A stretch of 35,433 bases of DNA from Planctomycetaceae bacterium (GTDB lineage: Bacteria; Planctomycetota; Planctomycetia; Pirellulales; Thermoguttaceae), in contig JAISQK010000234.1 in the NCBI GenBank assembly GCA_031274255.1, positions 1 to 35,433 on the forward strand, in the 5' to 3' direction. Under the pieces are notes generated by a model. That model was not told the DNA's origin. It saw nothing but the letters and a program-made list of their open reading frames with translations, and did not search any database. The position numbers and the translations under genes were made by a program. Shown piece after piece: positions 21,966 through 35,257 of the stretch. How positions within the stretch are numbered: position 1 is the first letter of the stretch; every line of letters begins with the position of its first letter.

Positions 21966-23066
21966 TCACGGCAATTGGTAATTTTCCCCGTAATTGGCGG
22001 ATGCTGCCGTCAGAACAATGTCCATGCTGGTTGTGTCGGAGATATAATGCGTTGATCCGTCGCAAAGTCCGAAAACGGCCCCGCCGGTATGATAGCTGCC
22101 GAACGGTCCGACGGTGCGAAGCGGGGTGAACCGGGCGGCGACTGTCTCACCCTGTTGCATGGATTTCGGTCCGCAATTGAGATAAAACGCACTTTTCACC
22201 CCTTTGGCAGAAAGAAGCGAAAAGTTCTTGCCGTTTCCGCTTGCATCCCCTTCACTATGGATATACGATCCGCGATGCCAACCGCGATAACCCTGATAGT
22301 CGTTCCAGGAAATCTCCCCGAACGCAAGTGTGTTGGAGGTTCCATCGGAGATAAAACCGAAATTTCTCGATAACCCGATTGTCATAATACCGTTGTCTGC
22401 CACTTCGCCGGCAGCAGTGGAAGAGTTAATACGTGAATAAACATGCGGCGGGTTGGTTCCCGGCACGTTTTCCGTTGCTCCGGCGATTCCATAGTAATGC
22501 GTGGTTTTCCAAGTGGATTCCCCGGATCCTGGAGAATCTTCCTGCGAGGTACTGGGGCAAAACAGGCCGGGAATTTTTACCTCACCAATAGCTTTGTTCG
22601 GTGTATCACTGTAACCATAGTGAAAATCAGCCTGCGAAAAGAGTGCTGTTTGTTCCATGTAAGGACACAAACGTACCATGACGCCAAGATGTCCCTGAGC
22701 ACCGCTCCCTGTCTTTTTTTCCCAACCGTCATTGGGAAACGCACGCATCGCATCGTGATAGGTGTGCAATGCCAGACTCAGTTGTTTGACATGATTTGTA
22801 CACTGCATACGTCTTGCCGCTTCACGGGCGGCCTGAACTGCGGGTAAAAGAAGAGCAATCAAAATCCCGATGATTGCAATCACGACAAGAAGTTCCACAA
22901 GGGTGAAACCGGATCGGGCAGTCAAAACAGATCGGACAATGAATTTTGAACGGACAGAAGAACCTTTGGCAGTGTTTGCAACATATGTATCTGTAATACG
23001 GGAAGCCGTACAGATACCCCCCCCCCCCCCATTTTGACATTTCGGACACAAAGTCAAGTTTTGCAT
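21966..23066 (-). CDS. DUF1559 prepilin-like protein with poly-G tract near start
   Basis: A 366-residue protein. Residues 1-50 are a leader with a CPKC motif and five glycines encoded by a 14-G tract. The type IV prepilin signature SGFTLVELLVVIAIIG follows at about 52-68, then the helix LLPAVQAAREAARRMQC and the DUF1559 domain (ALHTYHDAMRAFPNDGW, CPSTSQED, ISDGTSNTLAFGE, HTGGAVFGLCDGST). These planctomycete proteins are thought to be surface or pseudopilin-like, but their function is unknown. The ATG at 23066 follows an AGGAGA site; upstream starts in frame lack one. Because the G-tract lies 36 bases downstream of the start, gain or loss of a base would shut off the gene. Sequencing error in the tract is possible. 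Confidence 0.9.
   Translation of the reverse strand: MQNLTLCPKCQNGGGGGICTASRITDTYVANTAKGSSVRSKFIVRSVLTARSGFTLVELLVVIAIIGILIALLLPAVQAAREAARRMQCTNHVKQLSLALHTYHDAMRAFPNDGWEKKTGSGAQGHLGVMVRLCPYMEQTALFSQADFHYGYSDTPNKAIGEVKIPGLFCPSTSQEDSPGSGESTWKTTHYYGIAGATENVPGTNPPHVYSRINSSTAAGEVADNGIMTIGLSRNFGFISDGTSNTLAFGEISWNDYQGYRGWHRGSYIHSEGDASGNGKNFSLLSAKGVKSAFYLNCGPKSMQQGETVAARFTPLRTVGPFGSYHTGGAVFGLCDGSTHYISDTTSMDIVLTAASANYGENYQLP
23017..23030 (-). repeat. 14-base G homopolymer in coding sequence
   Basis: Fourteen consecutive G residues on the coding strand of the DUF1559 gene, about codons 13-17. It is the longest homopolymer I noticed in the window. Such tracts slip during replication. Its location before the prepilin cleavage point means that glycine number would not change the mature protein, only the reading frame. 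Confidence 0.85.
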
Positions 23067-23319
23067 GGTTTTTCTCCTGAATTTGGAAAAACGTTGAACG
23101 AAAGTTAACACAGATTGACACAAATCAATCCGATTACTGCATTCTATACACAACAATTCCAAAAGTCAAGCGGGATTGTCGTTTTTTTAGAAAATTTTCC
23201 TGAAATATTTTCACAAAATACAAGTTCTTTTTTCAGCGTGACAGAAAATATGCAACCTTTTCTGATTTTTGCGGATTTTCTCTGTTCCGAGCGGAAATGC
23301 GGAACAGCATCAGCGGACA

Positions 23320-24321
23320 TCAAAAGTACCAGCTCATGCCGGTGAAAACCGTGTGCATGTTTTCCCGGTTTGTCATGGAAGCGTTGTATCTGATGAAAAT
23401 GTCCATCGACCTGCCGAATTTGCCCGTCAGTGACGCTCCGAAAATCAACCGGTCACGGCCGGATTCATAACCTGAAACCGTATAGACACATGGAAACGGA
23501 TCGTTCCAGGAAGTGCGGAACAGATCCCCGCCGCCGAACTCATGAGACCAGCTTCCGCTCAGTTCAGGGTACCATGTCGCAAAGAGGCTCGTTTGCCGCC
23601 AACGGTAACGCAGACCAAGGGTTCCTCCTTTCACCGTGTGATTTGATGAGGAAACATTCATCGGTGAGAGGGTTCCGAAAACCGGCTTCGCCTGATACGG
23701 CGATTCCTCAAGATTCAGGTAGTCGAACCCGAGAAAAGGTTCCATCTGAAAAAGCCCTGAACTGACTTTGATGCGAAATTCCGTAGAAATTCCGTACTGT
23801 TCGGCGGTGCGTTTCCCGTTCCATTGCGAAGCGTTGAACGAATGCATCAGTTTCTGATCGTGATACCCGTAACCGGCATGAATGTCCCACGACCATTGAT
23901 CCCGGTCAATGCCTCCATGTCCGAACAGTTTGAAAGCGTTGACATCTTTCTGAAGAACGCCGGTTTTTTCGTCGGCGGAAAACCAGTCCCCTCCGGCACC
24001 AAATCCCAGAAAGAGGTTCTTTTTGCCGTGCCGCAGCAACCCGGTCGTCAGCCCGAACGAACGGGTCGAGAAGCCGGGAAGTGCCGCTTCCTTTTCATAA
24101 GTTTGCCAACTGCCGTAGAGACTCAAGCGGCTTTTCAAACGCCAATCCTCATCGGCGGCGCATGTCACCGAGTCCGTTCCGCGAAAGAGAATATCCTTGT
24201 TTTCCGCAAGTTTTTCGAGAGAGTTCGAATGGTCACTCCAATAACCAATGTCCCCATCCCCGGGAAACAGGGATGAGGACAACATCAAGAGAACCAAGAA
24301 AAAGGAGAATAAGAAACGCAT
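23320..24321 (-). CDS. Outer-membrane beta-barrel protein (autotransporter-domain-like)
   Basis: A 333-residue exported protein. A signal peptide covers about residues 1-20 (FLFSFFLVLLMLSSSLF). The rest alternates hydrophobic and polar residues with many Gly, Trp and Tyr, and contains barrel-type phrases such as FGLTTGLL, LFLGFGAGGDW, SFNASQWNGKRTAEQYGISTEF and GLRYRWRQ. It ends in Trp-Tyr-Phe, the aromatic terminal residue typical of outer-membrane barrels recognised by the BAM complex. This supports a diderm cell. There is no passenger domain. The ATG at 24321 lies 23 bases after the upstream gene; an ATG at 24378 would overlap it. Confidence 0.75.
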   Translation of the reverse strand: MRFLFSFFLVLLMLSSSLFPGDGDIGYWSDHSNSLEKLAENKDILFRGTDSVTCAADEDWRLKSRLSLYGSWQTYEKEAALPGFSTRSFGLTTGLLRHGKKNLFLGFGAGGDWFSADEKTGVLQKDVNAFKLFGHGGIDRDQWSWDIHAGYGYHDQKLMHSFNASQWNGKRTAEQYGISTEFRIKVSSGLFQMEPFLGFDYLNLEESPYQAKPVFGTLSPMNVSSSNHTVKGGTLGLRYRWRQTSLFATWYPELSGSWSHEFGGGDLFRTSWNDPFPCVYTVSGYESGRDRLIFGASLTGKFGRSMDIFIRYNASMTNRENMHTVFTGMSWYF

Positions 24322-24343
24322 TCTGATAAGTCCGCACAACAGA

Positions 24344-25060
24344 TTATCGTGCCATACCTGGTTGGGGCGGTTGCGCAATCATGGCGGCGGAAGGGTCCTG
24401 CGGATTTCCGGGCTGATTCTGATTGAACGACGGAACATTCATGACATTTTCCTGATGCTGAGGCGGAACGGCGTTGGGGTCTGCCGGAACACCGCCTTCC
24501 GCCGGAGGCTGCTGTTGGCCGTCCTGCTGCCGTGGTTTGATCGGAACAAGTGCCATCAGAGCACGGTCTTTGGAGACATTGTCCATAGCATATCCCCAAA
24601 GTCCGTCTTTTTCGTCGTAACCGACATTGTAACTGTGACCGCTCTGCGCGACGCCTTGCGAAAGCACATTGGGACCGCTCGGACTGCGAACGACCAACGC
24701 ACCGCCGGTCTTCGGATTGGAACCCATTTCCGTGTAAATACGGCACTGATCCACCTGGGTTTGCGGATTGTCCGGCGTAGTGAAAACGGCGTTTCCCATA
24801 AGAATGTTGCCGCAAAGTTGTGTTGCGATGATTCGGGTCCGCGCCAGCACTCCGCCGTTTGTCATCACAAGATCAGGGTCATCCTTGCCTTCCGGCCAAA
24901 GGTAAAGCGTGTCGGAAACTTTGAGTTTCTTGACGGTCAGTTCATCAAGATTGCCGGCCAGTTCCCCGGCACTTTTCTGCGGCAGAAACATTGTCGCCGC
25001 TGCACCGACAACACCGCCGACAACCGCCGCGATGATACTGAGAAAGATTTTTTCGCCCAT
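24344..25060 (-). CDS. Membrane-anchored protein of unknown function with Pro/Gln-rich tail
   Basis: A 238-residue protein I do not recognise. An N-terminal anchor spans about residues 5-25 (FLSIIAAVVGGVVGAAATMFL). A predicted beta-rich segment follows at about 38-160, with repeated short blocks (TLYLWPEGKDDP, GALVVRSPSGPNVLSQG) that resemble parts of surface or phage-tail-like beta structures. The last 65 residues are disordered, rich in Pro, Gln and Asn. A strong CAGGAGG site precedes the ATG. It lies directly before the outer-membrane barrel gene (23 bases between stop and ATG), so both are probably cotranscribed envelope proteins. Confidence 0.75.
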   Translation of the reverse strand: MGEKIFLSIIAAVVGGVVGAAATMFLPQKSAGELAGNLDELTVKKLKVSDTLYLWPEGKDDPDLVMTNGGVLARTRIIATQLCGNILMGNAVFTTPDNPQTQVDQCRIYTEMGSNPKTGGALVVRSPSGPNVLSQGVAQSGHSYNVGYDEKDGLWGYAMDNVSKDRALMALVPIKPRQQDGQQQPPAEGGVPADPNAVPPQHQENVMNVPSFNQNQPGNPQDPSAAMIAQPPQPGMAR

Positions 25061-25341: not shown

Positions 25342-26286
25342 TCATTTTTGGCCATACATTCTTGAAATACTGTCCGCGAGCCGCAAAACAGAGATGTAAT
25401 ACTCCGACTCCAAGGGAGAATGCTCTATCAATTCCGCTGCGGTTTGTTCCGCAATCATCCGGGCGGCGGACTGGTTGAATTCCGGCTGAATGATGACGGC
25501 CCTGACATGATCCGCTTTGAATGTTTTGATCCAGTCGGCGATTTCCCTCGGTGACGGCGACTTCCCTTCGACTTCGATGGCACGCTGTACAAGCCCGAAC
25601 TCCTCACAGAAATACGCGTAGGAAGGATGGTACACATAAATCGTTTTTCCGGCGAGCGGATCAAGCTTTTCATGGACTTTTTTTTGCAGATCGGTCAGCT
25701 CAACAAGAAATTTTTCGCAATTGGCGATGTAATCTTCTTTCCCCGCCGGATCAATCCCGATTAACGTGTCGCGGATCACACCGGCCTGTTCCTTGACCAG
25801 CGCGGGACTCATCCAGATATGCGGGTCTGCCCCGCCGTGAGCGTGTGCCGCATGACCGGCGTGATGGTGATGGTCTTCGTGCAGCTTCAAACCTTCCAAA
25901 ACATCGACCACACGAAGATGCGGAGCCTGTGATTTAAGCCTTGGCAGAAGATTTTGCTCCGCAGGAAAACCGATACTGAAAAAAACACGGCATTGGGCCA
26001 GTTTCCTGATCTTTTCCGGCGACGGTGCGTAAGTTTCCGGCTCTCTTCCCGGCGGCACCAGCGTCTCAATGTCCACATGGTACGCATTTTCCACATTCGG
26101 ATACGCGGCGATTTTCCGCACAAAAAACGCTTGCGGCTCAATACTGACCGCCACAGAGAGTTTATTCTGATGCCGGATTTCAGGACGTGACACTCCATTA
26201 CGCATGATTGCGACTGCAACAATCACAACAACAAGCGAAATTACTCCACCGAAAAACACATAGAAAGGCCGAAATTTCTTTTTCAT
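25342..26286 (-). CDS. Zinc/manganese ABC-transporter substrate-binding protein (ZnuA/TroA family)
   Basis: A 314-residue periplasmic metal-binding protein with an N-terminal anchor or signal at about 8-28. The two-lobed fold is visible: VAVSIEPQAFFVRKIA at about 46-61, the His-rich loop HEDHHHHAGHAAHAH at about 136-150, DPHIWMSP at about 154-161 with a ligand His, YVYHPSYAYF with a second ligand His, and IIQPEFNQSAARMIAEQTAA. At the first ligand site, where the family usually has P-H-T-Y, this protein has PETY, so Glu replaces His. No permease or ATPase gene is adjacent. The start is taken at the ATG at 26286; a GTG at 26316 is possible. Zinc is the likely metal from the His-rich loop, but this is inferred. 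Confidence 0.88.
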   Translation of the reverse strand: MKKKFRPFYVFFGGVISLVVVIVAVAIMRNGVSRPEIRHQNKLSVAVSIEPQAFFVRKIAAYPNVENAYHVDIETLVPPGREPETYAPSPEKIRKLAQCRVFFSIGFPAEQNLLPRLKSQAPHLRVVDVLEGLKLHEDHHHHAGHAAHAHGGADPHIWMSPALVKEQAGVIRDTLIGIDPAGKEDYIANCEKFLVELTDLQKKVHEKLDPLAGKTIYVYHPSYAYFCEEFGLVQRAIEVEGKSPSPREIADWIKTFKADHVRAVIIQPEFNQSAARMIAEQTAAELIEHSPLESEYYISVLRLADSISRMYGQK

Positions 26287-26442
26287 TTTAACAATAATCA
26301 AACAGCCCAATTTCACATATTTCCATGTTTCGTATTATATTTGCATTTTCAAAAAATTACAATAGTGAGCATGAGTAAAAGAGAGTGGTGATGTAGTTAT
26401 AGATGTCCAGCAAAATTATCAGACATGATGTATACCATTTGT

Positions 26443-26556: not shown

Positions 26557-27263
26557 GGCTCTTGACTAGCATCTCTTGTTATTTTATCAGATTTTGACGA
26601 TGTTCAAAAGGTTTACCTCGCGATGATTGTACCTGAATTCGGTTTCCTTTCAATGGAGGATAAAGGTTTGAGAAGAACAGCCGTTGAACTTGGCAAGACG
26701 TCTTTTGGCATAACTCCAAAACGCTTCAATTCCATTGACATGCGACTTTCCTCTTGCAAATTCTTTGCATGATGGAACACCCGATAGTGATCGTAACCGT
26801 TCAAAATCAGTCCGTCGTAAGCTTTCCAGCCATCGGTATGGATGGTGGAGCCTTCAAGGATTTTTCCGCGAATAATAGGCATTAAAGCCTCTTTGGAACA
26901 ATGAGAAACAACCGTTACAAACACATTGCCTTCCCGTTTGAAAAGACCGAACATTGATGTCTTACCCGCAGCACCGCGTCTCCGCTTGCCGCGAACACGC
27001 TTCGCACCGAAGTACGGTTCGTCAAGTTCAAACTCATCCGTTTCCAACGGACTTTCTTTCAAAGACTGCTGGAAAATCCGCTCACGGATTTTCCGAAAAT
27101 ACGAGTTCACCGTGTTCCGGTTTACCCCCAAAATTGACGCCGTTGCCGTCGCAGTCAGGTCCTCGCAAAAGCAACGTAAAAGCAAGTCAACTTTTTTAGC
27201 ACTTAAACGCTTGTATCTCATAGACTTACATTAAAATATGTTACGAGATGCTAGGCAAGAGCC
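26557..27263 (-). mobile_element. IS1595-family insertion sequence, full-length copy (707 bp)
   Basis: The ends are imperfect inverted repeats: GGCTCTTGACTAGCATCTC at the left and GGCTCTTGCCTAGCATCTC at the right (minus strand). One transposase gene fills the interior. The flanking 8 bases (AATAAGAA and ATAATTAA) do not match, so no target duplication is visible. Partial copies of the same element form both ends of the window. Confidence 0.92.
26613..27221 (-). CDS. IS1595-family (IS1016-like) transposase, frameshifted near C-terminus
   Basis: A DDE-type transposase with an N-terminal helix-turn-helix (about 1-45) and catalytic parts FELDEPYFGAKRVRGKRRRGA at about 63-83 and STIHTDGWKAYD at about 126-137. 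The 0-frame reads HHAK and then drifts into an unrelated tail, giving 202 residues. The expected continuation (EFARGKSHVNGIEAFWSYAKRR) is in the -1 frame, so the third catalytic acidic residue is lost unless a -1 shift occurs. In that frame a TGA breaks FILH-x-KETEFRYNHRE. The right-hand copy shares this TGA. The gene is probably a degenerate or recoded transposase. Confidence 0.8.
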   Translation of the reverse strand: MRYKRLSAKKVDLLLRCFCEDLTATATASILGVNRNTVNSYFRKIRERIFQQSLKESPLETDEFELDEPYFGAKRVRGKRRRGAAGKTSMFGLFKREGNVFVTVVSHCSKEALMPIIRGKILEGSTIHTDGWKAYDGLILNGYDHYRVFHHAKNLQEESRMSMELKRFGVMPKDVLPSSTAVLLKPLSSIERKPNSGTIIAR

Positions 27264-27406
27264 ATAATTAATTCGTTCTAACCAGTTGCTGTTGTTCGAA
27301 TGATTGGACGCCAGTAATATTTTGACTAAAATTTGAGTATATGGCAAAATTTCTGCAAAGATTTTCTTCCTTACCGTATCTTATATATGTAGAGACGCAA
27401 AATGTT

Positions 27407-27943
27407 ATGAGCGACGAAATATTGATCCAGGAATATCAGCGAACCGGCAACCGTGAACTTCTCGATGAAGTTGTCCGCCGGAATTTCGATCGGGTTTATC
27501 GCTTTGTCGCCTCAATGGTTACATCAAATGACTCCGTTGACGACCTTGTGCAGGATGTTCTCACATCCGTTGTTCGGAACATCGGAAAATTTCATGGCAG
27601 GTCCCGGTTTTCAACATGGATTTATCAAATCACTCAAAATCGTGTGCGTCGGTTTTTGGAAACATCGGCGCGAAATTTTATGTACCTTGATGACGAACAG
27701 GCCGAACGTATTGAAGCGAAACCATGGGAGGAAACCGTTGATTCCAAAGAACTTATGAAACAAATTGACTCGGTGATTGCAGAACTCTCCCCGGCACTGC
27801 GGACGGCAATTCTTCTGACAGGCGTTGAGGGGCTTACCCCGGAAGAAGCCGCCATCGTTGAAAATTGTTCCGTCGCCAACATTCATTGGCGCATCCACAA
27901 AGCGAGAATAATCCTCAGGCGGCGTTTGAAAGAATATTTATGA
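27407..27943 (+). CDS. ECF-type RNA polymerase sigma factor
   Basis: A 178-residue ECF sigma factor. Region 2 spans about 1-85: EILIQEYQRTGN, RNFDRVYRFVASMV, DDLVQDVLTSVVRN and TWIYQITQNRVRRFLE. Region 4 spans about 120-178: LSPALRTAILLTGVEGLTPEEAAIVENCSVANIHWRIHKARIILRRRL. The ATG at 27407 is chosen because homology starts there; an ATG at 27341 would add 22 residues with no support. It overlaps the next gene by ATGA. The first gene of a set of five genes in the same direction that includes two CsgG-like exported proteins, which may form its regulon. Confidence 0.92.
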   Translation: MSDEILIQEYQRTGNRELLDEVVRRNFDRVYRFVASMVTSNDSVDDLVQDVLTSVVRNIGKFHGRSRFSTWIYQITQNRVRRFLETSARNFMYLDDEQAERIEAKPWEETVDSKELMKQIDSVIAELSPALRTAILLTGVEGLTPEEAAIVENCSVANIHWRIHKARIILRRRLKEYL

Positions 27944-28491
27944 GTACCAAACTTGACGATATACTCCACGATTGGGCACAAACCAAATTACCGGACAACG
28001 AAATCCGGGAAGCGATTCTCCGTAATGTGCTTGGGCAGAAGAAGATCGGAAAGCGACCGACACCCAAACGGCATCATCAAGCTGGCTGGATTACGGCCGC
28101 AGCCATTGCCGCCGTTATGTTATTGTTCGTGCTTGATGTTCCGCAGCAAGACACGCCAATTGTACAAAAGCCGCCGGTTGTGACCAATATCATTACAAAG
28201 AAAGAGCCGATTCAGGTTTCGCTTCTGGTTTTACGGCATTTACCCAATTCGGACACCGCCGTTGAGTTTCTCGAAGACACCGTTTTGGTCACAGAGGATC
28301 AAAAGGTCAATACATTGGATTTGAACGGACACAAATTTTATCTCTGGTTCTATAAAATGGAGCCGGGTTTATTCACGGTGGATGTTGTCATTGACGACAT
28401 CACCGGAACCGATCTCATTGTATCGAACAAAACACGCGGACTGCACCTGAAATCGGAGGAGAACGAGTTTGATGTTTTCGTTTCCTTGTAA
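27940..28491 (+). CDS. Putative anti-sigma factor, single-pass membrane protein
   Basis: A 183-residue protein that starts inside the sigma stop codon (ATGA overlap). The N-terminal 45 residues (STKLDDILHDWAQTKLPDNEIREAIL) would face the cytoplasm. A membrane segment lies at about 51-68 (ITAAAIAAVMLLFVL), and a periplasmic part of about 110 residues is predicted to be beta-rich. It has no recognisable zinc-binding anti-sigma motif. The role is inferred from coupling to the sigma gene and topology. Confidence 0.75.
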   Translation: MSTKLDDILHDWAQTKLPDNEIREAILRNVLGQKKIGKRPTPKRHHQAGWITAAAIAAVMLLFVLDVPQQDTPIVQKPPVVTNIITKKEPIQVSLLVLRHLPNSDTAVEFLEDTVLVTEDQKVNTLDLNGHKFYLWFYKMEPGLFTVDVVIDDITGTDLIVSNKTRGLHLKSEENEFDVFVSL

Positions 28492-28539
28492 ATTTTATGT
28501 TGCGCACAGAATTTTTATGTTACACACAAAGGCAAAATC

Positions 28540-29544
28540 ATGAAACACATGTTTTTCATTCTTTTAACATTATTTCCAGCGGTGCTGTTTGCCGAAGAAT
28601 TGCCGGTGATTTGGGTTGAGGCGGGAACGAATCAGAAAATCAATCTCAACCTGCCGATGAGTGAAGTTTGGACACGTAAACGGATCCCCGTTTCCAACCC
28701 GATCTCCAATTCTTCGGGATATTGGACGTTACTGTATGAACATCGCGTTTTGGCAAGCGGGACGACAAGCTGTAATCCGTCACAAATCGGCACGATTTTT
28801 TCTTTCGATCTGAAAACACCTTCCGTGAAAGAAGGTGTGACGTTACAAGCGGAACTCTCGTTTAATGATGTGACTGTCCGGAAAGTCGTCGTTGCCTCAC
28901 AGGAACCGTTTGAAGATCGGAAAGCATGGTTTGGAAAATACCCGGTTGCGTTGTACGATCCCGAAGGAAAAACGGCGGAATTTTTTGAGAAAGAAGAGTA
29001 TCCGTTTCAGCATTTGAAATCATTCAACGACATTGAAACCGTTACCGGCAGGACAATTATCATCGGCGAAAAGACCTCTTTTGTCAGAAAACGCGGGCTT
29101 GACAAGGTACTGTACCAAAAAATGCAAACCGGAAATTCCGTGCTTGTCGTTGCCCCGGTGGATAATTTTCCGCTTGATTTCAGTGATCCGAACAATACGG
29201 TCTATTCCCTATCGCTGACGGAAAATGCCAAACATCTTTTTCCGCTTGAGCCGGATTATTGGATGACTGATTCCGCATGGGTTTTGCAAAGCGAGAGAGG
29301 AATTGTCATCCTTGCCGATAATAATAACAGATTGCAATCGGAAACACAAGTACTAAAGAATAGATGCCCCGGCGGTCCTCGTTTACTTGATCTCCGTTTG
29401 ATAAAAGGCGATTTCAAAGCGCGGCCGACAAATCGGATGATTGCCGTGAAGAAATCCTTATTCGATAGCAATATCGAAAACAAATATTTTTTCAGGATGT
29501 TAATTGAGACATTGAACAATAAACAATCAGAAACTCACCCGTAA
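28540..29544 (+). CDS. Exported protein of unknown function
   Basis: A 334-residue protein with a signal peptide at about 1-18 (MFFILLTLFPAVLFA). I do not recognise a domain. The N-terminal half looks beta-rich (about 20-120: VIWVEAGTNQKINLNLP, WTLLYEHRVLASGTT). The C-terminal half is mixed alpha/beta. An AAAGG site precedes the ATG. It follows the anti-sigma gene by 48 bases and precedes the first CsgG-like gene by 33 bases, so it is part of the same likely operon. Confidence 0.8.
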   Translation: MKHMFFILLTLFPAVLFAEELPVIWVEAGTNQKINLNLPMSEVWTRKRIPVSNPISNSSGYWTLLYEHRVLASGTTSCNPSQIGTIFSFDLKTPSVKEGVTLQAELSFNDVTVRKVVVASQEPFEDRKAWFGKYPVALYDPEGKTAEFFEKEEYPFQHLKSFNDIETVTGRTIIIGEKTSFVRKRGLDKVLYQKMQTGNSVLVVAPVDNFPLDFSDPNNTVYSLSLTENAKHLFPLEPDYWMTDSAWVLQSERGIVILADNNNRLQSETQVLKNRCPGGPRLLDLRLIKGDFKARPTNRMIAVKKSLFDSNIENKYFFRMLIETLNNKQSETHP

Positions 29545-29577
29545 GGGAGTGTCAACCAACCCCAAAGGAAAATTCCC

Positions 29578-30525
29578 ATGAAAACCAAACTGTCTATGTT
29601 AATGATCTGCGTGTTTCTTTTGAGCGGTATTTGTTTTGCCGAAGAGGACGCTGACAACGCTGTGTATCCCGTTGCGGTGTTGCAATTTCAGGACCGGAGC
29701 AGGGAAGTTACCGGTCAGGGTAAAATTGTTGCGGACATTTTGTTTGCCAATCTTGTCACCAATTCGTCACTTCTTCTCGTAGACCGGGAAGATTTTGACA
29801 CGGTCGTCAGGGAGCAGGAAATCAATATTTCCGGTGTCGTCAGTCCTGATCAAGCCATTAAGATCGGAAATCTGATCGGTGCGAAAATCCTCATCACAGG
29901 AAGCGTCATTCAAACCGAATCAGCGACTTATCTTGTTGCTAAGTTGATCGGAACGGAAACGACACGGGTTCTCGGTGCGAGTATCAAAGGTTCGGTAAAC
30001 GATACCATCGACACGTTGGCTGAACAACTTGCCGTCGATGTTGCCAGAACAATTTTAGCGGATGGTACGAAACTTGTTGCAAAGCCGCTGACTCAGAAAA
30101 ATCGAATTGCCGCGTTGAAAAAAAAAGTCAAGGACAAGACATTTCCGGCAATTGTTGTGGACATTCCCGAAACGTATCTTTCGCAGCATACGGCCGATCC
30201 GGCAGCGGAAACGGAATTTGCACTTTACGCTAAAGAACTTGGCATCGCGGTTTTCGATAAGAAAGCGGCGGACAGGAACAAGGCGGATATTTTATTCGTC
30301 GGCGAAGGATTCAGCGAAAGGGCGTTACCGGTCGGCAATTTGATTTCTGTCAAGGCACGGGTCGAACTGAAAGCCGTTGATCGTATAACCGGCGAAGTCA
30401 TCGCCATCGACCGCCAAACGACGGTCGCAGTGGACATTACCGAGTCCGTCGCCGCCAAAACCGCTCTGCAACAAGCCGGAGCAATCCTTGCCGAACGGAT
30501 CATTCCGAAATTGGGAAAGCAGTGA
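29578..30525 (+). CDS. Exported CsgG-like protein
   Basis: A 315-residue protein with a signal peptide at about 1-21 (MLMICVFLLSGICFA). Residues about 28-160 match the CsgG/FlgT-type pattern: YPVAVLQFQDRS, GKIVADILFANLVTNSSLLLVDREDFDTVVREQEI, ISGVVSPDQAIKIGNLIGAKILITGSVIQT. CsgG-family domains occur in the curli secretion channel and in other lipoproteins at the outer membrane. There is no lipobox, so it is soluble or associated in the periplasm. A second alpha/beta domain follows at about 185-315. A good AAAGGA site precedes the ATG. It lies in the ECF cluster, next to a larger protein with the same N-terminal fold. Confidence 0.82.
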   Translation: MKTKLSMLMICVFLLSGICFAEEDADNAVYPVAVLQFQDRSREVTGQGKIVADILFANLVTNSSLLLVDREDFDTVVREQEINISGVVSPDQAIKIGNLIGAKILITGSVIQTESATYLVAKLIGTETTRVLGASIKGSVNDTIDTLAEQLAVDVARTILADGTKLVAKPLTQKNRIAALKKKVKDKTFPAIVVDIPETYLSQHTADPAAETEFALYAKELGIAVFDKKAADRNKADILFVGEGFSERALPVGNLISVKARVELKAVDRITGEVIAIDRQTTVAVDITESVAAKTALQQAGAILAERIIPKLGKQ

Positions 30526-30616
30526 TTTTTACAGGAAGCAGAAAAAAAGAGGAAATTCTCCCATTCTTTTTTCTTTCGGTGAAATCATTTTCATCGTAAA
30601 AGCCAACATCAAAAAA

Positions 30617-33600
30617 ATGATGAAACGTTTATTATTTTTCTTTATCCTGTTGTTTCCCGCAATCAGCGTTGCCGGGGAGTTGCCACGACTTGCGATTGTT
30701 CCCGGCGGGGAGCCGAACCCTACGGCATTGCTTGCCATCTGCGAGGCGAAGCTGTTTGAGCTCAAAAACGTCGAACTGCTCGAACGACAGGAGATCGACA
30801 AGGTGTTTGCCGAACAAAATTTGAGCGGTATGTTCGATGTGACAAATACCGTCATGCTCGGTGCGATTTTGAAAACCGATTTCTTCGCAGTGCTGGAATC
30901 AACGTCAATCATCGTCTTCGACGCCAAAACCGGGCTGCGTTACGCCGATGAAACGTTGCCGGTAACGTCATCGGGAGGGATCGACGATGCCGCGAACCTT
31001 GCTGTTGAAACGGTCAAAACCGCCATCGAAAAACGGGACAAACTCGGTAACGGAACACTCGCCACGTTCGGTATTTTGGAAATTCGTAATGCGGAATTTC
31101 CGGCGGACCGCAACGTTTGGTGCGAGGCGGTTTCCGGGATGCTGGAGCGTGTACTGCTTCATCGCGGAGCTTCCGTACTGGAACGTTCATGGCTCGAACA
31201 TGTCAGTAAAGAGCGGCAACTGATCGGCGAACAGGATCATTCGCTCTTCGCGTCAATGCAATTGATCAATCTTGAATTTACGCGGTCGGAAACAGCCGAC
31301 GCTTTTCTTCTGAATGTTCATATCGGTGAAAAAACGTTCAAAACCGAAGCTCCGTTCAGAATGCCGCAAAATGCCGTGAACGATGCCGTCAATAAAATTT
31401 TGGAACAAAATCCGGATGAAAAAAGCACTTCGCTGCAAGATGAAGCGGCACGTTTTTACAATGAAGCGGTTTTTCTGTATGAGAACAAACTTTATGATCA
31501 GGCGGCGAAGTATATCGAAACGGCTTACGCACTTAACCCGGAAAATGAAGAATACCGGGATACACTGTTGGAATATCTCTTTGAGGATGCCTATATTCTT
31601 TTAATGCAAAATGTGACAGCCGGGTATGCGGACAGATCTTTTCTCAACAAAGATCCGATAAAAACGAAGCGGTCGATTTCTGTGTTTAGGCGGGCTTTCG
31701 ACATTTATTCCCGTGAACAAAAATTCATGACACTTTCGACAACACGAGGTCCACAAACAATGGATTACAATCGATACCTCAATGTCATTATGCATATTCC
31801 GCAGGATATCTATCCGGAATGGATTTCCGACCGTGAAAAAATATTTCAGCAAGTGTTCGACGATTGGATTAATGTCCGGTATCCGAGGCTAAAGGATAGT
31901 GTTTACGATCAGAAATCATTTTCTCTCTGGGCTTCACCCGGTCTTGTCTCTCCGCCTGAACGTATTCGGAATTATGCCCCGCTTGATGTTGTCGCGAATT
32001 GTTACGAAACGTTTTTTCGTGATCTTTTTGCGTTTCAAAAGCAATATCAGATGAATCCCGATAATGTAAAACCCATTTTAGATCAATTTCAAAAGTTTGC
32101 CATTTACGTTTTATCGCTCGATAACGTCGTTGACCAGCGATTCTATGGTCCAATAGAGAGACCAATCTGGCAAGGCATTGCAGGCTTTACCGGATCACTG
32201 CCGGTCACAACGAAACCGTCTGAAAGGGAAAAAAGTCTTGCTGAGGCTTCGATCCGCCGGACGTTTACTCTTATTTCCGGACAGGGGTTTGATATTTATG
32301 TCTGGGTCACCGAGTTGAGAGTCAGGGAACAACATCGGCGAACAACCGTTCATACCGAAGAAGAACGAAATGAACTCGCCAATGCTTGTATACAGGAGAT
32401 TCAGAATAAGATCATGTCGATTCCCGATGGAATAGAATCCCGTGATCGTGAAATTCTTTCCAAAATGCTGCTGGAGAGGAAAGAAATGCTGGAGAGGATA
32501 ATGGGGACTAAACCGCCTGAAAAACAACCGGAGACTCCGAATGAATTCTTAGCGGCCCGGGAACTGCCAGTGCAAAATGCTCCGTGGAAAGAAAAACGTC
32601 TGCTTTCTCATCTTCACATCCATCCGTCGCTTCATGCCCGGAATGATACGCTTGTTGTCTTTGAAGATATGTATGATAACGGAGAAACAGTCAAGCCACA
32701 TTTATTTAATCTGAAAACCTTTGAACAAACGACATTGCCCGAGTGGAAAATAGAGAAAAGTGAAAATTCCCAGGTCGGTAAATCCTCTGATGTCATTAGA
32801 GGGTGTGATCTTGATGACAAAAACATCTATGTCAGCAGGAACGGTCACGGAATTTTTATTTTTCCACGCGATGGCGGAAGGCCCACGGTGATTAACACGA
32901 AAAACGGCTTGCCGCATAATTTTATCCAAAGTTTCGCTGTGCTGAAAGACAAGCTTTATGCCGGTGTCGGTTTGATTGGCGCGGAGTCATGGTTTGTCGA
33001 AGTGGATTTACAAACACAAAAAGTCACACTCCTTTCCTCAAGTCTTGGAAAAACAGGTACTGCACCGTTTTTCAATCTTTCCCCGCCACCGCGTTTTCAC
33101 AAATTTACACCTGATCCAAAGCACCATCGGATTTTATTTACTGTTCAGGCGGATAATGAGAACCCTAAAAACGGACTCTGGACCGTGGATGAAAATAAAA
33201 CATTCGAGCAAATACTTGCATTCGAAACTTTCGATAGTTTTTTTTCGGACAGACTCTCGATTTCACCGGACGGCAAATATTTATTTTTAGTGAGCTACAA
33301 GGGGGCACCTGCCCTTTTCGACTTGGAAATAAAAAAACAGGTTCAGTTAGACCGATTGAATAATCAATGGTTACAGAAATTGCAATCAGGTATGAATCCC
33401 CCTGCATTTTCTCCACGAGAATTCTACCGGGGATGGTCTTACGGTCTCATCAGTTTGGATTGGGAAAAGCAGTGTCTTGGGAGGGTTTTCATTGAGGATC
33501 CGACACGTATTGAAAGGCTTGACATCGTTTGCAGCAGGCCATATTATGCTTTTGGGGTGATGCTTGCCGTGCCAAACGGTATTGTTGTTATCGGAGATCC

Positions 33601-33631
33601 AAACCAATTCTTTTTTTTACGTTTTGAATAA
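30617..33631 (+). CDS. Large exported protein: CsgG-like, TPR-like and beta-propeller-like parts
   Basis: A protein of 1004 residues. A signal peptide covers about 1-19 (LLFFFILLFPAISVA). The first CsgG-like unit is at about 20-140 (LPRLAIVPGGEP, ELLERQEIDKVFAEQNL). A second similar unit spans about 150-280 (GTLATFGILEIRNAEF, VLERSWLEHVSKERQLI). TPR-like helices follow at about 285-340 (EAVFLYENKLYDQAAKYIETAYALNPENEEYRD). A long helical part lies in the middle. The last 330 residues have repeated strands with propeller-like phrases (NGLPHNFIQSFAVLKDKLYAGV, LSISPDGKYLFLVSY). The ATG pair at 30617/30620 is preferred since the signal peptide begins there. It is the last gene of the ECF cluster. 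Confidence 0.8.
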   Translation: MMKRLLFFFILLFPAISVAGELPRLAIVPGGEPNPTALLAICEAKLFELKNVELLERQEIDKVFAEQNLSGMFDVTNTVMLGAILKTDFFAVLESTSIIVFDAKTGLRYADETLPVTSSGGIDDAANLAVETVKTAIEKRDKLGNGTLATFGILEIRNAEFPADRNVWCEAVSGMLERVLLHRGASVLERSWLEHVSKERQLIGEQDHSLFASMQLINLEFTRSETADAFLLNVHIGEKTFKTEAPFRMPQNAVNDAVNKILEQNPDEKSTSLQDEAARFYNEAVFLYENKLYDQAAKYIETAYALNPENEEYRDTLLEYLFEDAYILLMQNVTAGYADRSFLNKDPIKTKRSISVFRRAFDIYSREQKFMTLSTTRGPQTMDYNRYLNVIMHIPQDIYPEWISDREKIFQQVFDDWINVRYPRLKDSVYDQKSFSLWASPGLVSPPERIRNYAPLDVVANCYETFFRDLFAFQKQYQMNPDNVKPILDQFQKFAIYVLSLDNVVDQRFYGPIERPIWQGIAGFTGSLPVTTKPSEREKSLAEASIRRTFTLISGQGFDIYVWVTELRVREQHRRTTVHTEEERNELANACIQEIQNKIMSIPDGIESRDREILSKMLLERKEMLERIMGTKPPEKQPETPNEFLAARELPVQNAPWKEKRLLSHLHIHPSLHARNDTLVVFEDMYDNGETVKPHLFNLKTFEQTTLPEWKIEKSENSQVGKSSDVIRGCDLDDKNIYVSRNGHGIFIFPRDGGRPTVINTKNGLPHNFIQSFAVLKDKLYAGVGLIGAESWFVEVDLQTQKVTLLSSSLGKTGTAPFFNLSPPPRFHKFTPDPKHHRILFTVQADNENPKNGLWTVDENKTFEQILAFETFDSFFSDRLSISPDGKYLFLVSYKGAPALFDLEIKKQVQLDRLNNQWLQKLQSGMNPPAFSPREFYRGWSYGLISLDWEKQCLGRVFIEDPTRIERLDIVCSRPYYAFGVMLAVPNGIVVIGDPNQFFFLRFE

Positions 33632-33676: not shown

Positions 33677-34648
33677 TTATTGACGTAGGCAGTATCCATT
33701 GTGTTTGAAGTGGTTTGAGCAGTCGGTTGAAGAAAAAAACTTTCCCGACCCGCGTAGGATCTCTTGCAACTTCCCCACATCGCGAATCTTCTCTTTACGC
33801 AACAAAGTTTTCAACTTCGAAAAGCTCAGCTCAATCGGATTGAGATCTGGACTGTACAGCGGCAAGTACAACACATTTGCTCTCTTCGACTCCATCAAAG
33901 TCTTCACTTTGGGATCGCGATGCACGATAAGATTATCCATCACGACAATATCCCCTTTGCGCAATACCAGACACAAAACCGTTTCCACCTATTCCCAAAA
34001 ACGCAGACGGTTCATCGTACCGACAAACACCTGCGGCTTACGATTCCGTCGTATCGTAAGCCGCAAACATATAGGTTGTCGTGATCCAATGTGCGTGTGG
34101 TGTTTTATCCACAAGCCGCTTCACTTTCAACGTTCGACCATACCTTCTCGTCATGTTGGTCTTCGCGGAAGTCTCATCGAGAAACACCAGCTTTTTCGGA
34201 TTCAAAGCAACGTAGTACGTTGCATTGCAATAGGCTCATGTTCACTTCGTTCGATTCGCTTCCATGAAATACTGTCTTGTTCCGCCGCATTCAACAGTTT
34301 TATAATTCTGCTTCAAATTCCGAAGCTCTTTGAAGACGGTCGGAAAGCTGACATGCACTGGCAACTGATCTCGAATTTCCGCTAATGTTGCATCGGGTGT
34401 TGCTTCGACGATCTGCTTGAGGAGTTCACTATGTTCTGCGAGTTTCTGTTTCGGACCGGTCTTCGGTTGGAGCGGTTCAATGGCCCCGGTCTCGATCCGT
34501 TATTTTTTGATCTTGGCGATGGTGGAACGCCCGACCATTCCCTTTGTGGAACAAACCAATAACCTTGTCTGCGGTTTTGTGTTCCGATATTCCGTTATTG
34601 CAGTCCAGTCAAATTCGTTTTCGCATTTCTGTTGGGGATGGCTTTCAT
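33677..34648 (-). pseudogene. IS630-family transposase relic
   Basis: Pieces of one transposase are still readable on the minus strand in different frames: an N-terminal part ending KGMVGRSTIAKIKK and broken by a stop, then GPKQKLAEHSELLKQIVEATPDATLAEIRDQLP, then ALNPKKLVFLDETSAKTNMTRRYGRTLK with the first catalytic Asp, and finally GDIVVMDNLIVHRD and LYSPDLNPIELSFSKLKTLLR with the last two acidic residues. A stop separates the last two pieces (RLRFWE then stop). A mosaic repeat segment (34205-34262) interrupts the middle. The gene cannot make active transposase. Confidence 0.85.
34205..34262. repeat. Mosaic hairpin repeat module inside IS630 relic
   Basis: On the minus strand it reads GCGAATCGAACGAAGTGA, then CATGAGCC, ATTGCAATGCAACG and the stem-loop GCAACGT-ACT-ACGTTGC (34207-34223). 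It matches the module at 15919-15972 and the GAACGAAGTGAGTGTGAG version at 11527-11555 (minus). It lies between the IS630 parts EQD and LNPKKLVFLDET, where the family has no such sequence. Confidence 0.75.
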
Positions 34649-34737
34649 GGTATTTCTCCAGATTGATTTCTTGTCAATTCTCTGACAACGACTTCGCATT
34701 GTCCACAGGACAAAAAGTATAACAAAAAAATTAATAG

Positions 34738-35240
34738 GGGAGACGCGGACACCCCTGCCGGCCGAACCGGGGACACCACCCTTACGGTTTGATACTGAGT
34801 ATGTACGCAACGGGACCTGCGAGTTATTCCTGTTTGTTGCGTCATTGGCCGGATGGAGGAGGAGTGGACGTTACCGAACACAGGAAGCGGACGGATTGGG
34901 CGAATCAGATTAAGCGTTTAGTGGATGAGGATTTCCCTGACGCGGAAAAGATCGTTTTGGTGATGGACAATCTTAATACCCATCCATAGTATCGCTTCAT
35001 TATAGGAGACGACGGATACGGGAGATACACTCTACGCCTAAGTATGGCAGCTGTCTGAACATGGCGGAAATCGAACTGATTGTATTGAACCGTGTCATGG
35101 CTTGTCCGATCGTATACCGACGATGGAACGGATGAAACAGGAAACCATCGCTTGGAACCGTGTACGCAATGAGGAAGCCTGTAAGATGGATTGGTGCTTT
35201 ACAAACGCTGACGCACGGATTAAGCTCAAAAGACTATATC
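34738..35240 (+). pseudogene. Second IS630-family transposase relic
   Basis: The plus strand carries a decayed C-terminal half of a different IS630-type transposase. Recognisable parts: GETRTPLPAEPGTPPLRFDTEYVRNGTCELFLF, then after a frameshift KIVLVMDNLNTHP with a catalytic Asp, then NMAEIELIVLNR with the catalytic Glu, and MDWCFTNADARIKLKRLYP near the end. Stops and shifts divide it, and the N-terminal half is missing. It borders the right-hand IS1595 copy. Confidence 0.8.
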
Positions 35241-35257
35241 CACTATCTTGACTGTGT

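Follow-up and report, generated by a model that had tools for sequence, protein, structure and literature searches.

What would an extracytoplasmic function (ECF) sigma factor respond to when it is encoded together with exported proteins that carry CsgG-like domains? Planctomycetes have many ECF sigma factors, and to our knowledge most of these have no known signal. The question is raised by a five-gene cassette at positions 27407–33631 of contig JAISQK010000234.1 (Planctomycetaceae bacterium, assembly GCA_031274255.1); the stretch analysed, 35,433 nucleotides in all, is referred to below as the window. In five open frames, all on the + strand and verified at the positions given by an earlier reading of the letters alone (hereafter, the sequence-only reading), the cassette encodes the sigma factor, a predicted anti-sigma factor and three exported proteins, designated unk, csg and big, whose N-termini resemble signal peptides by eye. 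The best explanation for this combination, to which we assign a probability of about one in two, is an autoregulated, self-contained module for envelope or periplasmic sensing, in which the exported proteins probably form an assembly for sensing in the space between the cell's two membranes.

The sigma factor (178 amino acids; 27407–27943, that is, 27407–27940 plus the stop codon) has Sigma70_r2 (E-value 3.4e-14) and Sigma70_r4_2 (E-value 5.7e-9) domains, both above the Pfam cut-offs. Its regions 2 and 4, the lack of region 3, a length of approximately 180 residues and a TIGR02937 match above cut-off are those of an ECF sigma factor. The start at 27407 is favored over an ATG at 27341 because the conserved promoter described below occupies 27355–27383. 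The close packing of the genes is as the sequence-only reading had it: the sigma and anti-sigma frames overlap by four bases (ATGA, with the anti-sigma ATG at 27940), and the remaining intergenic gaps measure 33 to 91 bases. The second gene (27940–28491, +; 183 amino acids) has no match in a Pfam scan of the window proteins, and its position and family conservation suggest that it encodes a membrane anti-sigma factor, as had also been proposed. By hydropathy only, the protein has one hydrophobic segment starting at about residue 48 and a layout in which a short cytoplasmic part is joined by a single membrane segment to a conserved exported domain. The zinc motif Hx3Cx2C was found in none of 35 anti-sigma reads, the window's included, six of which (L072, L078, L088, L089, L090, and L093) are without the N-terminal part.

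The arrangement recurs in other genomes, as the sequence-only reading would require. A profile scan of genome contigs with an alignment of six csg proteins as bait, from which loci were picked by two csg peptide patterns, yielded at least 66 loci, all with csg by construction. They come from Planctomycetota, Verrucomicrobiota, Kiritimatiellota, Lentisphaerota, unnamed bins, two Colwellia and one Desulfobacterium, and thus nearly all belong to the phyla of the Planctomycetes–Verrucomicrobia–Chlamydiae (PVC) group; a contig scan with big as the single query returned no match. Gene order was read by comparing iterated profiles of the five proteins with all frames of these loci, and only loci whose contig extends far enough from csg are counted. 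In 55 of 61 such loci, unk lies immediately 5′ of csg (the six exceptions, L101–L106, are all from Lentisphaerota), an anti-sigma gene is found upstream of csg in 33/58 and a sigma gene in 38/53, and a big-type gene follows csg within 1 kb in 34/53, or at any distance on the same strand in 39/53. The conserved order, kept across PVC loci, is sigma, anti-sigma, unk, csg, big. Based on these counts, we regard unk and csg as a firm pair, the sigma pair as a common companion, and big as common but exchangeable. Pairwise distances show correlations of 0.872 between sigma and csg (n = 39), 0.836 between sigma and unk (n = 34) and, lowest, 0.341 between csg and big (n = 34), none of which was reached in 999 permutations.

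Several loci depart from this order. Those of Lentisphaerota are without unk, and in four of the six (L101 and L104–L106) big stands between sigma and csg. In L041 (1116–2096), whose csg is the nearest neighbor of the window's csg (63 per cent identity) in a quick tree where phyla are intermixed, csg is followed by a small frame on the opposite strand and a frame of tetratricopeptide repeat (TPR) type. The loci from two Colwellia strains and the Desulfobacterium (L073, L082, and L083) hold csg and a big-type gene, the Colwellia loci have neither sigma nor anti-sigma, and by eye the frames upstream in L073 resemble galactose genes and a LacI-type regulator. Rhodopirellula sp. SM50 and Colwellia sp. 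75C3 are isolates that have the exported genes and no sigma gene beside them.

Among related bacteria, presence of the cassette is patchy. It is a single copy in the window's own genome, and csg was detected in 11 of 99 sampled genomes, the window's own included (E ≤ 1e-8), and unk in 6 (E ≤ 0.001); in all five non-self genomes with unk, the two genes adjoin. At high stringency, csg occurs in 3 of 148 genomes of the phylum, again counting the window's, and none of three genomes of the same genus has csg at E ≤ 1e-8. One of these three (G003, contig C314, 3616–4007) holds two adjacent short pieces that resemble residues 732–830 and 25–60 of big in reversed order, perhaps a relic.

Comparison across loci points strongly to autoregulation, with a target set that appears narrow. 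The sequence-only reading had proposed a search for promoters that depend on this sigma factor, and a two-box motif, CCAAGATTT-N11/12-GCGTCTAA, was found to recur 5′ of the sigma genes. In the window, the promoter-like site reads GCAAAGATTT-N11-GTATCTTA and lies 5′ of the sigma gene at 27355–27383 (+), with its boxes at 27355–27364 and 27376–27383. The summed score of the motif is 751, compared to 335–375 for eight shuffled sets, and 47 sites of at least 16 bits are present across the 66 loci and the window, compared to 7 in the shuffles. Thirty-seven of these sites precede sigma, five precede csg, one a divergent big and one an anti-sigma piece, and three precede none of these. A site was found in 36 of 39 loci with sigma (the exceptions, without a site above 16 bits, are L046, L098, and L103), whereas only 1 of 15 loci without sigma has one; this count is partly circular because training of the weights began with a seed picked by eye on sigma upstreams. 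The L043 upstream scored poorly at first, and a site was found further upstream.

The test was repeated without a seed and on split halves, with the pass level set at that of 98 per cent of mononucleotide shuffles. Held-out sigma upstreams passed in 15/19, 19/20, 18/19, and 20/20 cases, compared to 0, 0, 0, and 1 of the 14 upstreams of unk from sigma-less loci (14 and not 15, because L072, the sole such locus with a site in the seeded count and one whose reading frames look broken, was left out). In addition, the csg upstreams of the Lentisphaerota loci, which carry a second motif copy in loci that have no unk, passed in six of six cases in each run; they were never in training, although five of these loci contributed their sigma upstreams to the training pool. 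Because the motif is present with sigma and nearly absent without it, the sigma factor most likely drives its own cassette.

How far its influence would extend beyond the cassette was assessed with a strict form of the pattern. In the window's genome, the strict pattern gave two sites, one of them the promoter at 27355–27383, and the reversed control also gave two; because the two counts are equal, no wider regulon is apparent. Six other genomes were scanned with the same pattern: G091 has eight sites (control, four), none with a cassette gene alongside, G070 has one (control, two), and G018, G029, G030, and G084 have none (controls, 6, 1, 4, and 0, respectively). Internal terminators and sigma-70 sites within the cassette occur at about chance level.

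The main rival explanation shares the control of the cassette by the sigma pair and makes the exported proteins an output only: they would be a complex of the TolB/LpoB kind that maintains the envelope, and the anti-sigma factor would itself sense an unrelated signal through its exported domain. It gains from the conservation of the anti-sigma exported domain by itself and from the kinship of csg, since LpoB, FlgO, and TolB_N come next after CsgG among the Pfam families, with matches at E ≤ 0.01 in 15, 3, and 3 of 30 aligned csg members, respectively. Of 53 loci with enough upstream contig, 15 have no sigma gene adjoining csg, which also speaks for this rival and means that the exported proteins can work without the sigma switch. 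A regulon apparently confined to the cassette, however, makes a pure general-stress output less natural, and so patchy a presence, in 3 of the 148 phylum genomes with the window's counted, is not what a housekeeping role in the envelope would predict. We consider this account possible, and clearly less probable than a sensing module.

Of the exported proteins, csg (29578–30525, +; 315 amino acids) has the clearest relatives. Its first unit (approximately residues 25–165) is a CsgG/LpoB/TolB_N-type domain that matches PF03783 above cut-off (E-value 4e-12), and PF03783 also matches 30/30 aligned family members at E ≤ 0.01, which identifies it as a CsgG core. The sequence-only reading had pointed out that such domains build channels or periplasmic collars, and in another rival explanation csg would be a CsgG-type outer-membrane pore and the cassette an exporter of fibers or proteins. 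The PF03783 matches are what speaks for a pore, but only the alpha/beta core is matched: the alignment of csg covers residues 31–115, corresponding to profile positions 11–103 of 210. When the csg profile was compared to the Protein Data Bank (PDB), the only sensible match was CsgG itself (E-value 0.04), and it ends at chain residue 133, just ahead of the first membrane hairpin, which we take to be residues 134–154. From the equivalent of this residue to the closing helix, unit 1 of csg has approximately 30 residues, apparently too few for two hairpins, and in the structure model of big the strands at the corresponding place are short in both units. A lipobox pattern was found in 4 of 63 csg members and not in the window protein. 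A pore is therefore very improbable, and csg appears to bear a closer likeness to soluble periplasmic domains of the TolB_N/LpoB/FlgO type than to the CsgG channel.

The C-terminal domain of csg (approximately residues 180–313; window positions 30109–30522, +) is highly conserved, with a mean column identity of 58 per cent. The scans made against Pfam and the PDB returned no sequence relative of it, the PDB matches all being chance-like. A second CsgG unit in this half of the protein was considered and rejected, as hhalign gave 0.63 per cent against csg unit 1 and less than 5 per cent against the units of big.

The largest protein, big (30617–33631, +; 1004 amino acids), combines two CsgG-like units, TPR-like helices, a helical middle and propeller blades at residues 725–870. 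On its own it scores below the Pfam cut-off for CsgG (E-value 0.04); a CsgG match at E ≤ 0.01 is seen in 12 of the 30 family members aligned, and hhalign profile comparison relates both N-terminal units to the csg unit (98.8 and 96.4 per cent). CsgG-core domains in two exported proteins, as the sequence-only reading had perceived them, are thus upheld, and so are the TPR-like helices and the propeller-like end, which are visible in the AlphaFold model. This model has a mean predicted local distance difference test (pLDDT) score of 61.9; it is mostly good at residues 24–334 and 725–870, with alpha/beta units at 24–144 and 150–263, and of low confidence in the central part and over the final 130 residues. 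The blades resemble those of the Bacteroides sensors BT4673 and BT4663 (3va6, Z-score 13.1, root-mean-square deviation [rmsd] 2.8, 136 aligned; 4a2m, Foldseek E-value 1.2e-4), and also TolB, with 7mx5 among the top Foldseek matches (E-value 5e-4). For the N-terminal units, no CsgG, TolB_N or LpoB entry was returned by the structure comparison, which is evidence neither way because the propeller filled the match list. A PDB profile search with the big head gave nothing useful, and a Pfam scan found no kinase or Y_Y_Y domain in big.

Across the family, the head of big is retained and its tail varies. Fifty frames, the window's included, hold the head and a region beyond profile position 780 (two of them, in L035 and L051, are on an identical contig). 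An FGE-sulfatase domain is present in 2 of 30 members, and scans of seven other tails revealed FG-GAP (in Colwellia), ankyrin, a 3-keto-disaccharide-hydrolase-like domain with DUF4350, and weak BNR and leucine-rich-repeat matches. A conserved head with swapped tails, distributed patchily across phyla, could also mark a mobile cassette for recognition or conflict. The copies in Colwellia and Desulfobacterium point the same way, as do remnants of insertion sequences (IS) on both sides of the cassette in the window: an IS1595-like transposase frame at 26613–27221 and an apparently broken DDE_3 (IS630-like) frame at 33677–33988. We nevertheless hold this explanation to be unlikely, given that the proteins other than sigma have no meaningful PADLOC or PHROGs match, that 72,556 plasmid records contain no csg match at E ≤ 1e-10, and that nothing toxin-like turned up in the scans made.

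The third exported protein, unk (28540–29544, +; 334 amino acids), has an immunoglobulin (Ig)-like beta-sandwich at approximately residues 20–125 and an alpha/beta region at approximately 127–204. Its model has a mean pLDDT of 67.5, and residues 220–334 are mostly of low confidence. The best structure match of the sandwich (Z-score 7.3, rmsd 3.7, 95 aligned) may reflect merely a common arrangement. At E ≤ 0.1, 4 of 30 unk members match DUF4350 and 3 match LacZ_4.

Under the sensing-module reading, the parts would work together as follows. At rest, the membrane anti-sigma factor would hold the sigma factor at the inner membrane, as gene order, the single hydrophobic segment and the conserved exported domain suggest. 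In the periplasm, unk, csg and big are predicted to act together as one assembly. Shared domains and linkage suggest that within it csg and big contact each other through their CsgG/TolB_N-type units. The tail of big, which varies and is a propeller in this case, may bind an envelope component, glycan or protein. The sequence-only reading had big link such a structure to a sensor, which it may do. A change in the assembly would reach the anti-sigma factor through its exported domain, freeing the sigma factor, which would transcribe its own cassette from the dedicated promoter so that more of the cassette is made. In loci without the sigma pair, the same exported proteins are probably under other control. 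We tentatively extend this to an undescribed class of envelope signaling, in which a tandem CsgG/TolB_N-type assembly contains a long subunit with a fixed head, the exchangeable tail of that subunit picks the signal, and the sigma factor amplifies the receptor; this generalization is less likely than not.

Several observations weigh against the sensing-module reading. The loci with no sigma gene adjoining csg, already counted, are one; another is that big is not always beside csg, being absent within 1 kb downstream in all but 34 of 53 loci and missing after csg in L041, the nearest csg relative. The distances of big track those of csg weakly, and plain co-inheritance or common descent can also yield correlated distances. 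Finally, neither the middle of big nor the C-terminal third of unk has a confident model.

With respect to the earlier interpretation as a whole, composition and linkage stand and the channel is not supported; the promoter, the wide distribution and the optional nature of the sigma pair had no place in it.

Elsewhere in the window, the G+C content is 0.521 (bases 1–26600), compared to 0.454 in the cassette, and by eye approximately 34000–35250 contains more sequence that resembles broken transposase. The gene at 25342–26316 (–) encodes a zinc-binding protein of the ZnuA type (PF01297, E-value 3.8e-57), one loop of which is rich in histidine, and a DUF1559/N_methyl protein adjoins an autotransporter beta-domain protein at 21966–24378 (–).

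The locus brings together a predicted promoter, a small target set and exported partners conserved across phyla, which makes it a single place in which to test for signal, partners and output. It would also represent a use of CsgG-core domains in soluble, modular periplasmic proteins and not in a curli pore, and residues 180–313 of csg define a conserved domain for which the scans made found no Pfam entry. The sequence-only reading knew of no described system of this composition, and full-text literature searches agree: they returned no paper on CsgG with an ECF sigma factor and Planctomycetes, on CsgG-like proteins with sigma, anti-sigma or operon, on any three of CsgG, LpoB, TolB and FlgO, or on CsgG with DUF4350. 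Wider searches, which did not extend to the principal papers on ECF classification and on planctomycetes, found no title or abstract opening that describes the cassette, and the word CsgG does not occur in the available parts of the texts of PMC8103513 and PMC7406223. A group label for the sigma factor may already be in print. Within the literature searched, the exported cassette is undescribed, and it is attached to a known type of ECF sigma/anti-sigma signaling.

That type is represented by operons of an ECF sigma factor and a membrane anti-sigma factor (RpoE–RseA and others), with which the cassette shares the adjacent pair, a probably autoregulatory promoter and a −10 box with GTC. Most ECF promoters carry an AAC core in the −35 box. 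The −35-like box of the cassette, CCAAGA, is without this core, the zinc motif is missing, and CsgG-like and propeller proteins accompany the pair. With the CsgG curli transporter (PF03783), csg shares the N-terminal alpha/beta core, but it appears to have no room for the two membrane hairpins and no conserved lipobox, and it has the extra C-terminal domain. The LpoB activator of penicillin-binding proteins (PF13036) has a similar small alpha/beta core; the window's csg, however, scores 16.5 bits against a curated cut-off of 22.3, has no lipobox and is a two-domain protein. TolB, of the Tol–Pal system, likewise joins a periplasmic alpha/beta domain of the TolB_N/CsgG-core kind to a beta-propeller, whereas in big the propeller comes after a pair of alpha/beta units, the TPR-like helices and an extended helical region, and none of the window proteins matches TolB_N (PF04052) itself. 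The hybrid two-component sensors BT4663 and BT4673 of Bacteroides have in common with big the propeller blades, of which they are the best matches; no kinase or Y_Y_Y domain was found in big, and the output here is an ECF sigma factor.

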